Assembly: GCA_021162935.1 (NCBI GenBank)
Contig: JAGGXR010000019.1
Span: 1-43,739 of the forward strand
Direction: 5' to 3'
Source: Deltaproteobacteria bacterium
GTDB lineage: Bacteria > Myxococcota_A > Polyangia > HGW-17 > SLPX01
DNA length: 43,739 nucleotides
The notes under the pieces are model-generated. The model was given only the letters and a program-made list of their open reading frames with translations. It was not told the DNA's origin and did not search any database. Of this stretch, positions 9,664-27,811 are shown in pieces (the stretch's first letter is position 1; every line of letters begins with the position of its first letter). The translations under genes and the position numbers were made by a program.

Positions 9664-11046
9664 CTATTTATGTGGAGAAGATGGACCCGCGCGGGCGGGT
9701 CGTGGGCGCGCCGCGGGTCGTGGGCGCGCCGCAGGTCGTGGGCGCGCCGCGGGTCGTGGGCGCGCTGCAGGTCGTGGACGCGCTGCAGGTCGTGGACGCG
9801 CCGCGGGTCGTGGGCGCGCCGCGGGTCGTGGGCGCGCTGCAGGTCGTGGACGCGCTGCAGGACGTGGACGCGCCGCAGGTCGTGGACGAACCCTAGGCTT
9901 GAGCCTTGCCAGACTCGGAGCGGCGCAGCCCTTGGTCGTCCGATCGTAGCCACGCCCCAGACGCCGACACCAGGCCTTGACCGCCCTCACGCTCCAGCGC
10001 ACCCGCTTGGTCGATGCACAGCGAAACCCCGTGGAGGACGCGCGAGCCGATGGCGCTGAACCAGTGCGAAGGTACGTGGACAGGTAGGTATGCGGAAACC
10101 CTGAATCGTACGCGCCGCCGCGCATGACCCTACTCCTGGAGGTCTGACATCGATTGACCACATTCCGACACCTCCCATGGCAGGTCCGATAGAACTTCCG
10201 GTCGTAGCAGTCGGCGACCCACTCCCAGACATTGCCCACCATGTCGAAGAGACCGAATGGGCTGACTCCGTTGGGTTTACTGCCCACCGGCATGGTCCCA
10301 CGCGGGCCGCAAAGCGGATAGTACCGACGCCTCGCAACCACGAGGTCACAGGTGGGATTTCCATTGCCCCACGGATACAATCTCCGGTCCTTGCCCCTGG
10401 CGCCGTACTCCCATTCGGCCTCGGTGGGCAGACGCCGCCCAGCCCACTGGCAAAACTGGTCGGCCTGATACCAGGACACGCAGTTGATTGGATGGTCCCT
10501 TCTGCCCTTTCGGCCCCAGTTGCAGTAGTTGCGACGGGAACTGGACGGGAAATAGATGCCCGCAGGCAGGCAACGACCTGCTTTGACGCACTTTGCATAG
10601 TCGGCCACCGTCACCTCGTACCGGTCCATGGAAAAGGCCGACAGGCACACCTGATGAGCAGGCCGCACGTTTCTCGCCGCTCCATTCATGCCCATCGTGA
10701 AACAGCCCGCCGGGACGAACACCATGGGACCATCGCGCCGAACCGACGAACGATGGTTCCTGGGCCGACACATGCAGGTCCAACGCCTCGCATCGAAATG
10801 GCAGCCCTTGCGACACCTCGGACGAGTCCGCGCTGAAGCGATGGACGGCATTGTGAGCAGGGTCAACAGGCCCACCAGCCCCATGCCAAAGGCCACCAAC
10901 AGCACCGACCCCATGGACCGGGACGATGCCTTCGACCGAAGCCCCCCGTTGGACCGGAACCCCCACATGGGCAGCGCCGCCCCTATCGACCACTTCGATT
11001 TTGACCAGAACCGATCTTTGTTCAGTACGCCTTCTTCTCTCACCAT
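9664..11046 (-). CDS. FGE-sulfatase (SUMF1-fold) domain protein with RPRPAA tail
   Basis: About 460 residues from ATG 11046, which has GGAGG only three bases upstream; GTG 11043 would be spaced six bases, so the exact start is uncertain. A hydrophobic segment at about 45-72 (ending PSIASA) exports the rest. The FGE-sulfatase fold covers about 106-345: DRYEVTVADY, CVSWYQADQFCQWAGRRLP, TEAEWEY, FDMVGNVWEW and TGFRCA are all present. The two catalytic Cys of true formylglycine-generating enzymes, expected just after the RGG motif, are absent (RGGAYDSGFPHTYLSTYLR), so it is unlikely to oxidise sulfatases. Many other Cys suggest disulfides outside the cytoplasm. Residues from 382 are an RPRPAA repeat tail, basic and proline-rich, perhaps a cell-wall or polysaccharide spacer. 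Function unknown. Confidence 0.82.
   Translation of the reverse strand: MVREEGVLNKDRFWSKSKWSIGAALPMWGFRSNGGLRSKASSRSMGSVLLVAFGMGLVGLLTLLTMPSIASARTRPRCRKGCHFDARRWTCMCRPRNHRSSVRRDGPMVFVPAGCFTMGMNGAARNVRPAHQVCLSAFSMDRYEVTVADYAKCVKAGRCLPAGIYFPSSSRRNYCNWGRKGRRDHPINCVSWYQADQFCQWAGRRLPTEAEWEYGARGKDRRLYPWGNGNPTCDLVVARRRYYPLCGPRGTMPVGSKPNGVSPFGLFDMVGNVWEWVADCYDRKFYRTCHGRCRNVVNRCQTSRSRVMRGGAYDSGFPHTYLSTYLRTGSAPSARASSTGFRCASTKRVRWSVRAVKAWCRRLGRGYDRTTKGCAAPSLARLKPRVRPRPAARPRPAARPRPAARPRPAARPRPAARPRPAARPRPAARPRPAARPRPAARPRPAARPRPARAGPSSPHK
9690..9897. repeat. Eleven-copy 18-bp tandem repeat coding for RPRPAA
   Basis: Eleven tandem 18-base units (the last incomplete) with the core GTCGTGGGCGCGCC lie within the 3' end of the FGE-like gene. 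Units differ at a few positions (for example GGGCGC against GGACGC). Read in the minus-strand gene frame, every difference I could trace is silent: CGT/CGC/CGA for Arg, CCT/CCC for Pro and GCA/GCG for Ala. There are no unique spacers, so this is not a CRISPR array. Copy number is likely to vary between strains. Confidence 0.9.
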
Positions 11047-19032: not shown

Positions 19033-22000
19033 TTATCTCTGGCCCCGCCGTCTCCTGCCGAAGCTGAACATGGCCAGCCCCGCCAGGATCAAGAGCCAAC
19101 TTGGCAGGCCTCCCGACGGCCCGCCACCGCCTGCCTCGGTGCGACAACCACATCCACTGTCGGCTGCCGTCCGGCTGCCGTTGTCCATGCAGGTGTCCGA
19201 GCAGCCGTCGTCGTCGGTCTGGTTGCCGTCGTCGCACTCCTCGTGACCCGCCCACACGACCCCGTCTCCACAGGATGCCGCCACACAGTTCGAAAGGCAA
19301 CCATCCGTATCGTCGCTGTTTCCGTCGTCACAATCCTCGTGGCCCGCCCAGACGAATCCGTCCCCGCAGGTGGCCACCCGGCAGGTCGCAAGACAATCGT
19401 CCGTGTCGTCGCCGTTACCATCGTCGCATTCTTCTCCCTGCTGCACGATCCCGTCGCCGCAGGTGCCCATGCTGCATGAGTTCGAGCATCCGTCGCCATC
19501 GGTTTGGTTGCCGTCATCGCAGTCCTCGTGGCCCGCCCAGACGAATCCGTCCCCGCAGGTGGCCCCCCGACAGGTCGTAAGACAGTCGTCCGTGTCGTCG
19601 CCGTTGCCATCGTCGCACTCCTCGTGCCCAGCCCACACGACGCCGTCGCCGCAGGTCGCCGCCCGGCAGGTGGCAAGACAGTCATCCGTATCGTCGCTAT
19701 TTCCGTCATCGCAGTCCTCGTGCCCGACCCACCGGAACCCGTCCCCGCAGGAGGCATGCACGCAGGTGTTCAGACAATCGTCCGTGTTCGAAGCGTTCCC
19801 GTCATCACAGGCCTCACCCTGCTGCACCTCACCATCTCCGCAGGTGGACAGCCGACAGGCGTTCGTGCAGTCGTCCGTATCCACCTGGTTCCCGTCGTCG
19901 CAGCCTTCGGCCGTATCCACGACCCCGTCGCCGCAATGGGCACGACGGCAATTGGTTCGACAGGCATTCGGCAGGCTATCCGAATTCGCCGTCCCATCGT
20001 CGCATTCTTCACCCTGCTGCACCACACCATCACCGCATCGAGGAAGGGTGCAGGCATTCGAGCACCCGTCCGTATCCACCTGATTCCCGTCGTCACAGTC
20101 CTCGTGGCCCGCCCACACGAAACCATCCCCGCAGGTGGCCGCCACGCATGTGGACAAACAGGCGTCCGTATCGTCGCTGTTTGCGTCGTCACAGTCCTCG
20201 TGCCCCATATCCAGGTGACCATCACCGCACCGTGGCCCAGATCCGGAACAATCAACGGCGCAATGGCCGTAGGTGCCGTTGGCCACACCATCGTCGCAGG
20301 CCTCGCCCTGATCCAGGACGCCGTCGCCGCAAAAGGAGGAAGCACGATACTCGTATGCCCCCATGTCATACTCGGAGCCATTGATCCCGTCGCCGTCCAA
20401 GGGTCTGGTCGTTCCCTCCATGTCATGGTCGGGCGCTCCCTGCGCGGTTCCCGCGTCGATACAGACACTCGAGGACTGGAGGTGGTAGTCGGATGACGAC
20501 ACGAACTGCGGATTCGCCGAAATGCAGCCGGTCCCCGACGATGCGTAGCTATAGTCAGCCGTCGAGTTGCCCCACACGTTCGAGTAGGTCGTGGTGATCT
20601 GACCGTAGTAGGCACGGATGCCGTACGCATTGTTCACCACGATGCAGTTTGCCACCGACACCCGAGACGCGGAATTGTACGTGTAGACTCCACGACTGTT
20701 GCTCGACACCGTCGAGTTGACGATCCGACTACCCTGGGAGTTGGTCGAGGTAACGTAGAAGGCGGTCTTGCCGGGATTTTCGTGCAAAAGGGCGTTCGTG
20801 ATGTCGGTCCTGGCCGTTCCTTCGACAGCAACTGCCGAATCACCGGTCCCATGCACGTCCAGGCCATCCACGACCAACACTCCCTGTTGGACGAGCAGGC
20901 CATTGCTCGACGTATCCGAGATGGCCAAGTGGCTGGCCGCGGTCTGACCGTCTGCGCCGTACACGAAACCGCGCACCGCGTGGCGCACCGCAATCCACGA
21001 AATCTGCGACGATTCCGACCCGGTAAGCATGTGGATACCGTACCAATACCCCGTGGCGTTGGCATCGGCCCGAAACACCACGGGCGAGCCCGGCGTGCCT
21101 GCCGTGATGAGGGTGCCCTTGACGATCAACTCGGGTCGGGCCGTATCCACGTTGGCCGCCATGATGTCCGAACTCGTGAAGCCGAGTTCCACCCCGGCGT
21201 CGATAGTCAGGTTCACACCCGGTGCCACGGTCAGGTCTCCCTCGATCCGATAGGGGCTGTGCGCCGCTGTCATGTGGGTGTCGACCCACAGGACACCGTA
21301 CCAGCCCGGCGTTTCATCACCGTCGTAGGGCAGTGGGCCCAAATCGCCGTTCACATCCGATGCGAATCGAGACGGGGACCGCGACGTGAGGCGACGATTC
21401 GAAACCGACACGTACAGTGGATTCGAAGACAAACAACCGGCCCCCGACGACGCGTAGCTGTAGTTGGCCGTCGAGTTCCCCCACACGTTCGAATAGGTCG
21501 TGGTGATTTGACCATAATAGGCGCGAATTCCATACGCATTATTCGTCACGTTCGAATTTTTGACGGCCACCCTGGCGGACGAATTGTACGTGTAGACTCC
21601 GCGACCGTTCCGGTCGATGGTGCAGCCATCCACGAGGGTCCCGGTCGCATCCGTCGAGGTCACGTACAGGGCAGTCACACCGAGATTGTCCACGATGAGA
21701 CAGCGGGTCAAGTCCGCCCGGCCAGTCCCTGAAATTTCAATGGCCGAGGACGAACAGTCCGTAGCCGTCACGCCGTCCAGGGTCGCGTGGCCCTTGGTCA
21801 CGTAGATGCACGAAGACGAGGTCGTCTGGACCAACACGTCGGACATGGATAGGACCGTTCCATCTGCAAGACTTGCCACGCCGTGGACGGCATGCTCGAT
21901 CACCGCGTGATCGATGGAGGCAGTGGTGGCGCTGTCCGTCACCACGATACCGTACCAGGTGCCCTTACTCTGACCACTGTGCGCCTCGAACTGCACGGGC

Positions 22001-25276: not shown

Positions 25277-25366
25277 GTTCACGATTCTGGACGAGTCGGT
25301 CTCACTGCCCCGACATTTCGAGTTCACGATTTCGGGCAAATCCGTCTCACTGCCCCGATGATTCTT
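25277..25366. repeat. Two-copy 45-bp tandem repeat
   Basis: Two adjacent 45-base units begin GTTCACGATT at 25277 and 25322 and share GTCTCACTGCCCCGA near their ends; the middle has diverged. The repeat fills the gap between the convergent propeller and peptidase genes and touches the peptidase stop codon. Confidence 0.75.
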
Positions 25367-26645
25367 ATCCAGTCTTCTGGGCGTCACGGCCGGACCTGCG
25401 CTGTGCTCTACGCCGCCTCGACCGGAAAAAGACCGCCAGAACGAACAGCACGAACATCGTCTGCGGCCCCCCTCCAGTCCCGGTGGACCGGCAGTCACAA
25501 CCGCCCGAACTCCTGGCCCCAGACCCTGCATCTCCCGTCGTGGAGCCATCCTGTCCCGATCCACCCGAATCCTGGTCACCAGCCCCGTCCCGGTCCAGAC
25601 CTGCATCGGCATTCAGATTTCCATCTGCGGTAACGCCCCCGTCCGGGCCCCCGGAGGAAACCGGACTGAGGCGGACGGCATCGAATCGGACCGGGATGCG
25701 CTGAGACACCGGCTCACCGGTGTTGTCGTTCAATGCCACGTACTGGTCCGAACCGGATGCAAAGGTGAACTGGCCCAGGGACACCCACCCGCTACCTGAC
25801 GCCTGATCCACGATCACCTGGTCCGATCCGCCATTGTGGACGACCACGAAAGGCGCATGCACCGAACTATTCGACTCATCGGGTAGGTAGACCTCCACGT
25901 CGTAGTCCTGGGCGTCGATCACATCGAAGCGCCATTGCGCCCAGCAGTCGTGGTCGGCTGCATCGATGGCGTACGTGTAATAGTGATGCCCGTCATAGCC
26001 ACTCGCTTCGTCCCACCAATAGGAACCATGGCGCAAGAAACACGGATCCTGATCGTCGATGATCGTGGGGCCGTCCGCGGTGAGCACCTGCTCGCAGGTC
26101 ATTGCCGCGGTTCCGTTGTACAGACGGGTCTCCTCGATCGTGTACCCACCTGCGCTTATCGTGTGGTAATCCCAGTATGGATCATTGATCTGATACTCTC
26201 CATTTTCGTTGCCCACGATCACCACGAAGTGCATGGAGGTGGAACCATTGCTGACCCAGGTAATGACAGGATATCCTGCAGCCAGTTCTCCATCGATATC
26301 GTCCGCCGTACCAGTACGGTCAAACGAAACCCCTTGCGGCATACAGGCATTCTGCCAATAGATCAGGCATCCGTTTGCATAGCCTGCGTTGTTCGTCAAA
26401 CAATCGTTGAGCTGGCCTGGATCCCGAGTGCCCCCGTAGTAGGTGTAGAGCATGGACGAGGACGTCACCGCACAACCCGCCCGACACATGGTCGTGTTGC
26501 AGGTCCCCAGGGTATCGTCTCCCCATGCTGGATCGCACTGCTTGTAGATCGGAACGTTGAGCAGCACGGCGTCTGCCGGCGACGCGGCCAGCATGCTCCC
26601 CAATGCAACGAGCAACGTCGCAACGACCTGGCCCAACTTCGTCAT
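25365..26645 (-). CDS. C39-like cysteine peptidase with golvesin domain and MYXO-CTERM
   Basis: 426 residues from ATG 26645, with GAGGGAGGG seven bases upstream, directly before a good signal peptide ending SPADA. The same ribosome-binding site and start occur again 51 bases upstream in frame (see repeat entry). The peptidase domain (about 27-190) has a papain-like triad: Cys58 in RAGCAVTSSSM, His139 in STSMHFVVIVG and Asp155 in INDPYWD. A golvesin C-terminal-like domain (about 192-327, CWAQWRFDV and FDAVRLSP) probably binds carbohydrate or mucin-like ligands. An Asp/Gly linker precedes GCDCRS, a hydrophobic helix and RSRRRRAQRR, the surface anchor. Likely a surface peptidase; the substrate is unknown. 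Confidence 0.87.
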   Translation of the reverse strand: MTKLGQVVATLLVALGSMLAASPADAVLLNVPIYKQCDPAWGDDTLGTCNTTMCRAGCAVTSSSMLYTYYGGTRDPGQLNDCLTNNAGYANGCLIYWQNACMPQGVSFDRTGTADDIDGELAAGYPVITWVSNGSTSMHFVVIVGNENGEYQINDPYWDYHTISAGGYTIEETRLYNGTAAMTCEQVLTADGPTIIDDQDPCFLRHGSYWWDEASGYDGHHYYTYAIDAADHDCWAQWRFDVIDAQDYDVEVYLPDESNSSVHAPFVVVHNGGSDQVIVDQASGSGWVSLGQFTFASGSDQYVALNDNTGEPVSQRIPVRFDAVRLSPVSSGGPDGGVTADGNLNADAGLDRDGAGDQDSGGSGQDGSTTGDAGSGARSSGGCDCRSTGTGGGPQTMFVLFVLAVFFRSRRRRAQRRSGRDAQKTG

Positions 26646-26764
26646 CGATACACCCTCCCTCATCTCATCGTTCGTCGTCCTCACACCCTTCGTCATCGAT
26701 ACACCCTCCCTCATCTCATCGTTCGTCGTCCTCACACCCTTCGTCATCGACACACCGTTCGTCG
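26641..26764. repeat. 51-bp tandem repeat duplicating RBS and start codon
   Basis: A 51-base unit (17 codons) is present in two full copies plus a partial third. Each full copy carries GAGGGAGGG (26653-26661, 26704-26712) seven bases before an in-frame ATG (26645, 26696). The third ATG (26747) has lost its ribosome-binding site. In-frame translation of one unit gives GVRTTNDEMREGVSMTK. Confidence 0.85.
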
Positions 26765-26782
26765 TCCTCACCAATCGATGCA

Positions 26783-27010
26783 TCAGCCAGGATCCCTTCT
26801 CCCTGTCCAATCATCACTCCTATCCGAATACATGATAGCCCACGCATCGAGCATGAGAAAAGCAATCCCGCCATGGAACTCAAGAACCACCATGGAGCCG
26901 CTGCGCTGCATGCTCTCGGGCACCCTCGCCTGCAGGCACTCACGGACCAGATTCAGATTATGCCTTGGATCGTCCGCTCTGCCGACCAACTCGTGCAGTA
27001 CGTCCTTCAT
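26783..27010 (-). pseudogene. Truncated AbiEii-type nucleotidyltransferase toxin
   Basis: This 75-residue frame starts at ATG 27010, eight bases after the AbiEi stop, exactly where the toxin gene of an AbiE operon sits. Its first 50 or so residues match the toxin N-terminus in pattern (MKDVLHELVGRADDP, NLVRECLQARVPESM, VVLEFHGG). The expected continuation (GGTAL with a following DxD-type catalytic motif such as SEDLDF) is missing: after FHGGIAF the sequence becomes unrelated and stops. I see no continuation in the other frames. It is read as a decayed or recombined toxin without nucleotidyltransferase activity. The break lies about 40 bases upstream of the C39 gene's repeat region. Confidence 0.65.
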
Positions 27011-27018
27011 CGCGTTTC

Positions 27019-27660
27019 TTACTCATCTGCCTCGATCCGCGCAAGAGCTGCGATCACCGCGGCGGCACGCTCCATCTTCGGGCTCTGCCAACGATCCGCA
27101 TAGGCCTGGAGCAGCCCCAGATCCAGCGAGTCGAGCGCCTGGAGAGGCAACGATTCCAGAAACACCGGCCGATCCCCCCGAGGCGTCAGGTACACGAGAT
27201 CCAGCAGCGCTTTTTCGGGCCGTGCGATGAGCGCCTGCTGGCCGGGTAGCACGTCGATTTCCACCATACCGAAAAACAGACGACGGCTGAGATGCCGAAA
27301 CTGGAACGCGCCCCGTGGCGTTTCCAGAGACTCGGGCCGCCTCGTGGTCACTGCCGTGGTCACTGCAGCGGTCACGGAGAGGGATTCAGGAATGAGCCCA
27401 TGAAACGCGAGGGCAGACCGGAAGCTCACGTACGAAGGTCGAGCCAGCACGTTCGACATCACGAAGGCATGTGGGGTCTGTTTGCGATAGACGGAAGCAA
27501 GGACATAGACGCCGCGCCTCAGCTGCACGACCTTGCCCGTTGCGACCCAGCGCGAAAGCTGCCGTCGCACGTCGGAAGGGTCCACGTCATCCGACAACAG
27601 CAAACCGGTTTCGAAAAGCGGTTCCTTACCAACGATTTGCAGAAAATCATCAAATTTCAT
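27019..27660 (-). CDS. AbiEi-type antitoxin / transcriptional regulator
   Basis: 213 residues from ATG 27660, the position where family members begin (MKFDDFLQIVGKEPLFETGL). The N-terminal winged helix (about 1-60, DVRRQLSRWVATGKVVQLRR) binds DNA; the remainder (FRSALAFHGLIPESL, ARPEKALLDLVYLTPRG) is the antitoxin domain of type IV abortive-infection systems. In characterised AbiE loci this protein represses its own operon through inverted repeats and counteracts the AbiEii toxin. Here the operator-like palindrome is at 27656-27685 and the toxin downstream is truncated, so the antitoxin may persist as an orphan regulator. Size matches the family; no internal damage is visible. Confidence 0.85.
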   Translation of the reverse strand: MKFDDFLQIVGKEPLFETGLLLSDDVDPSDVRRQLSRWVATGKVVQLRRGVYVLASVYRKQTPHAFVMSNVLARPSYVSFRSALAFHGLIPESLSVTAAVTTAVTTRRPESLETPRGAFQFRHLSRRLFFGMVEIDVLPGQQALIARPEKALLDLVYLTPRGDRPVFLESLPLQALDSLDLGLLQAYADRWQSPKMERAAAVIAALARIEADE

Positions 27661-27685
27661 GGCAATAACTTGCCATTCATGGCAA
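27656..27685. promoter_or_regulatory. Putative AbiEi operator over its own start codon
   Basis: A seven-base perfect palindrome, TTGCCAT-TC-ATGGCAA (27670-27685), is joined by a second copy of its right half: TTCATGGCAA occurs at 27656-27665 and 27676-27685, exactly 20 bases apart, two helical turns. The element overlaps the antitoxin ATG at 27658-27660. Characterised AbiEi proteins bind repeats upstream of their own gene, so autoregulation fits. Confidence 0.6.
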
Positions 27686-27811
27686 CTTTTCGCAACAGTC
27701 ACGATCCAAATCGGACTTTGGTGGCCTCTGGCCAAAAACTTTCGACAGGACTTCGTTCCGTCGTACAGTGGTCCAAAGCCCGCTGACTATAAGCAACCGG
27801 AGCCTACGACC

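Follow-up and report, generated by a model that had tools for sequence, protein, structure and literature searches.

The window, i.e., the whole stretch of 43,739 nucleotides that was analysed, encodes on its minus strand a surface protein whose translation-initiation region is part of a short tandem array. The protein has 426 residues and is composed of a signal peptide, a Peptidase_C39_2 domain (PF13529, E 1.7e-14), a Golvesin_C domain (PF25275, E 8.5e-20) and a MYXO-CTERM region (TIGR03901, E 2.6e-7, 30.9 bits against a cut-off of 20, residues 380-413). Its C-terminus has the Cys-containing signature, the transmembrane segment and the Arg-rich tail by which MYXO-CTERM proteins are recognized. 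The gene, its leader and the region upstream contain the following features:

25365..26645, minus strand: surface protein gene, 426 aa counted from the proximal start (Pfam, TIGR03901)
26640..26690, minus strand: proximal 51-nt repeat copy (Tandem Repeats Finder and copy alignment)
26643..26645, minus strand: proximal ATG, probably the main start and the ancestral one (it corresponds to the start of the ortholog)
26654..26658, minus strand: proximal Shine-Dalgarno (SD) core GGAGG, 8 nt before ATG 26645
26691..26741, minus strand: distal 51-nt repeat copy, identical to the proximal one (Tandem Repeats Finder and copy alignment)
26694..26696, minus strand: distal ATG, in frame, which adds MTKGVRTTNDEMREGVS
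26705..26709, minus strand: distal SD core GGAGG, 8 nt before ATG 26696
26742..26775, minus strand: shortened third copy, lacking the 18-nt SD segment and with one substitution
26745..26747, minus strand: third ATG, in frame, without a good SD
26808..26810, minus strand: TTG, the farthest-upstream in-frame start, with AGGAG at 26817-26821 (6-nt spacing)
26832..26859, minus strand: weak sigma-70-like promoter match, TTCTCA-16-TATCAT (9/12, consensus match only)
26849-27010, minus strand: AbiEii-like toxin gene, first 54 codons only, followed by unrelated sequence
27019-27735, minus strand: AbiEi-like antitoxin gene, below the NCBIfam cut-off

Tandem Repeats Finder describes the array (26637-26756) as 2.4 copies of period 51, with 98% matches and no indels. 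The two full copies, 26640-26690 and 26691-26741, differ at 0 of 51 nt, an identity that excludes chance similarity, and in its exact or near-exact tandem copies the array resembles a minisatellite or VNTR. The third copy stands upstream of both full ones, so that the leader, read 5' to 3' on the minus strand, is ...GGTGAGGACGACGAACG-GTGTGTCGATGACGAAGG, twice GTGTGAGGACGACGAACGATGAGATGAGGGAGGGTGTATCGATGACGAAG(G), then TTGGGCCAGG... The first-pass annotation had reported a 51-base tandem unit that repeats a strong SD and the ATG seven bases later; the copies are indeed identical, and GAGGGAGGG occurs twice, at 26653-26661 and 26704-26712 on the minus strand, 7 nt from each ATG. Its statements that the starts at 26645 and 26696 are in frame with the C39 peptidase, and that the frame would survive changes in the number of units, are also correct, since both ATGs lie in the frame of the 25365-26645 gene and 51 nt is a multiple of three. 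The unit contains, in addition, an in-frame ATG (NDE-M-REG) without a strong SD ahead of it. A 25-nt core block, GAGGGAGGGTGTATCGATGACGAAG, was found only at these two sites of the 5.13-Mb assembly with up to three mismatches allowed, and the unit as a dispersed element is thus ruled out. The SD-ATG block was not found in a genome contig collection of 84,980 species, and an Rfam search at the locus gave no match.

The canonical 3' end of the 16S rRNA, GGATCACCTCCTTT, is found in the genome, and its anti-SD is predicted to pair with -12.3 kcal/mol at 26645 and equally at 26696. At the third ATG, 26747, described earlier as having lost its site, the predicted pairing is indeed just -5.5 to -5.8 kcal/mol. 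In the predicted fold, the SD region is unpaired with a probability of 0.83 at the proximal start, 0.65 at the distal one and 0.38 at the third ATG. The locus therefore has two in-frame starts with a ribosome-binding context, as do genes that give rise to N-terminal proteoform pairs. Regarding their usage, initiation probably takes place mainly at the proximal start, and the distal ATG is probably used as well.

The only clear ortholog among 96 relatives (G002:C163, 55% identical) starts with AGGAG-TGGTC-ATG, followed by a 29-residue signal peptide. An in-frame stop lies nine codons upstream of this start and the repeat is absent from the 84 nt of upstream DNA that are covered; the extension is thus not conserved. 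Because this ortholog has one SD-ATG and no repeat, ATG 26645 is probably the ancestral start. The other genomes of the order have no clear ortholog of the C39 surface protein, and no relatives of it were found in the genome contig collection.

The peptide encoded by one unit, MTKGVRTTNDEMREGVS, has three basic and three acidic residues and hence a net charge of 0, and the n-region has a charge of +1 in the long and the short isoform alike. Behind the extension, the signal peptide is otherwise intact, with an AxA site and a cleavage point at ADA|V. As the units are charge-neutral and precede an intact AxA signal peptide, the same mature protein is expected from both starts, following the general rule for signal peptidase I, and initiation at the distal start may contribute a preprotein that matures to this product. 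The earlier suggestion that the protein could be made with or without 17 extra residues is thus plausible, given two equivalent in-frame sites that are predicted to be accessible; its second part, a change of export through the extension, finds no support in view of the zero net charge and the intact AxA signal peptide. The N-terminal proteomics proposed as a check would be a poor test for a secreted protein because cleaved leaders escape detection, this method being mostly blind to cleaved signal peptides (PMC13245402).

Directly upstream of the C39 leader lies a remnant AbiEi/AbiEii region (26783-27735, minus strand). The AbiEii-like fragment is 52% identical to a complete 271-residue protein that adjoins an AbiEi gene in another genome (G019); a complete AbiEi/AbiEii pair is present in a relative (L025). 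The AbiEii-like gene is truncated immediately ahead of the C39 leader, and the sigma-70-like promoter match, a weak one, falls on this junction. The C39 gene may be transcribed from the old abiE promoter or from one of its own.

We favor, with a probability of about 0.7, the reading that a translation-initiation region has here undergone an ordinary tandem duplication, which has been tolerated and whose net effect would be neutral or would amount to a modest shift in expression. The initiation region of this secreted MYXO-CTERM protein would have been copied in tandem by slippage during replication or by unequal recombination, first as an older, shorter repeat and then as the recent exact 51-nt duplication. 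The ancestral start, 26645, would have remained the main one, and 26696 would also be used, giving a preprotein with a leader longer by 17 residues and the same mature protein. Such a duplication would be tolerated because the frame is kept, a complete SD-ATG is carried along and only the n-region of a cleaved leader is lengthened. Counting against neutrality, both the length of the unit and the 18 nt by which the third copy differs are divisible by three; in a leader that is untranslated and evolves in a purely neutral way, each would have a chance of about one third.

Across about 1.2 Mb of the same genome, 29 near-perfect tandem arrays have a period of at least 24, and the period is divisible by three in 23 of them; young tandem duplications are therefore common, and an array on a start is by itself no sign of a device. 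An open unit does not require selection, since the 51 nt upstream of 44% of the SD-ATG genes are open in frame anyway. The in-frame codon score of the unit is -0.002, to be compared with a mean of -0.175 for the 51 nt upstream of SD-ATG starts (5th to 95th percentile, -0.417 to 0.104) and of 0.006 for first 17 codons. This neutral score is not diagnostic and neither proves nor excludes translation. An open, in-frame 51-nt duplication that lands on a start is, overall, a modest coincidence.

The genome was further surveyed, in sampled stretches covering 2.16 of its 5.13 Mb, for in-frame start pairs with a strong and near-identical SD context. Nine pairs were found, of which two besides that of the window were judged, after reading, to be real starts; the pairs at L059, L081 and L111 were discarded as spurious or internal reading frames. 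The two loci retained are:

L074, contig C43, 1235-2954, minus strand: array of 27-nt in-frame units
L042, contig C10, 6139-7260, minus strand: older duplication, AGGGAGGCTGACCATG twice, 42 nt apart

At L074, each unit carries GAGGA(A/G)G-ACGACG-ATG and the array lies ahead of a signal peptide; the secreted product is a beta-helix protein (PF13229) whose C-terminus is, by eye, of the MYXO-CTERM type. The five in-frame starts read M-ARQTRKTT, M-ARQTRKTT, M-ARQTRRTT, M-VRRTRRTT and M-ERRTCQGW..., and all three differences between copies change the residue, so that again there is no sign of a conserved extension peptide. Its SDs are predicted to pair with -2.8, -5.9 and -5.9 kcal/mol at the distal positions and -11.6 kcal/mol nearest the gene, strong SDs being confined to the copies closest to it. 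The L042 protein has a lipoprotein-like N-terminus (LATGC by eye) and no Pfam match, and its distal SD equals the proximal one in strength; the first copy overlaps the apparent stop codon of an upstream frame. Weak distal and strong proximal SDs are thus present at two of the three loci, namely the window (-5.5 versus -12.3 kcal/mol) and L074, a pattern that selection on the proximal start, with drift of the remaining ones, would be expected to leave. The N-termini resemble signal peptides at all three loci, versus about 48% of the SD-ATG genes by the same crude test, and for this reason an enrichment for secreted genes was not accepted. An 11-mer, GAGGACGACGA, is common to the window array (26671-26771) and L074 (2783-2896), where five of its eight occurrences in the 2.16 Mb fall; this hints weakly at a shared leader motif, which may be due to common origin or convergence.

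On a larger scale, two SD-ATG blocks with equal spacing are present in 77 of 317 genomes of the class for a spacing of 8 and in 61 of 317 for a spacing of 7. Inspection by eye gave 57 near-exact loci for the two spacings in these 317 genomes, with a period divisible by three in 39. Because many of these SD-ATG repeats plainly lie within coding sequence, and the counts were made without regard to the downstream frames, the scan shows only that SD-ATG duplications recur and carries no argument on selection.

A functional dual start, in which both ATGs are used and either the long and short preproteins differ in their export or ribosome loading and output are raised by the second SD, seems to us unlikely. 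In its favor, the SDs at 26645 and 26696 are equally strong and similarly accessible by prediction, and bacteria do use alternative in-frame starts, which alter the N-terminus of a protein and can alter its localization (PMC11005335). The distal start may be of importance also because neither full copy has lost its perfect SD, and because the distal SD of L042 is equally strong. However, a charge-neutral unit before an intact signal peptide should leave the mature protein as it is, the unit has a neutral coding signal, and the G002 ortholog manages without a second start. The role of a contingency locus, where the number of units would vary among cells or strains and set the expression of the surface protein, is quite improbable. 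The units are exact tandem copies of frame-preserving length, and the genome has, at L074, another array of several copies built in the same way, but there are only two full copies here, the block was not found in the 84,980-species collection, and G002 lacks the array. The tuning switch by copy number proposed in the first-pass annotation is, accordingly, not borne out, there being a clear ortholog without the repeat. We would likewise give little credence to the wider idea that repeat-number-variable initiation modules precede several exported surface proteins of the lineage, slippage setting expression or leader length; if true, it would represent a graded, frame-safe form of phase variation.

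Translation might also begin at TTG 26810, which would make the array a coding repeat inside an N-terminal extension of 55 residues. The frame is open from 26810, a properly spaced AGGAG with a predicted pairing of -7.4 kcal/mol precedes the codon, and the weak promoter match would put the start of transcription just upstream. We hold this to be very improbable, as the codon is a TTG with a weaker SD than either ATG, the ortholog begins at the signal peptide, and the codon score of 26757-26810 in the TTG frame is -0.066, below that of another frame. The window is a contig from a draft assembly of 168 contigs with 97.1% completeness, and an assembly artefact or a wrong copy number could lie behind the repeat. 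This has the slimmest chance of all, since ordinary reads can span an array of about 120-140 nt and other parts of the genome contain comparable arrays; the deviating third copy also makes a simple loop artefact unlikely.

Several known systems resemble a tolerated duplication of this kind in part. The N-terminal proteoform pairs of Salmonella and E. coli (PMC11005335) also have two in-frame starts with SD context, and the products of the C39 gene would likewise differ at the N-terminus only. They differ from this gene in that its two starts lie in exact tandem repeats of one another; moreover, their extensions are conserved, whereas that of the C39 gene is absent from the ortholog and the use of its starts is a prediction. 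Minisatellites in or near genes (PMC3899988) share with the array exact, frame-preserving tandem units at the edge of a gene, but here the unit covers a complete initiation region and the array is known from one genome. Dual-start phage holin genes (PMC4749879) have two close in-frame starts in one gene; those of the C39 gene are separated by 17 codons, and its products are not expected to oppose each other once the signal peptide has been cleaved. A holin proper was rejected, as the gene encodes a Peptidase_C39_2/Golvesin_C protein. Finally, the longer isoform, with a 43-residue leader in which 17 residues extend the signal peptide at its front, recalls the long signal sequences of autotransporters (PMC2805444); unlike their extended n-region, the sequence here is unrelated, charge-neutral and recently duplicated, and the protein is no autotransporter. 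A phrase search of the literature for duplicated SD or start sites found no paper, and a wider one returned nothing clearly alike, judging by titles and abstracts.

The locus thus provides a clear natural example of the in-frame duplication of an entire translation-initiation region, with two parallels in the same genome. It illustrates one simple route to longer leaders and multiplied start codons, and why automatic start annotation, which could pick 26810 or 26696, may be wrong. Two further tandem arrays are present in the window, one with an 18-nt unit in about 10 copies (9698-9885, 91% matches) and one, degenerate, with a 96-nt unit in about 6 copies (19222-19785).
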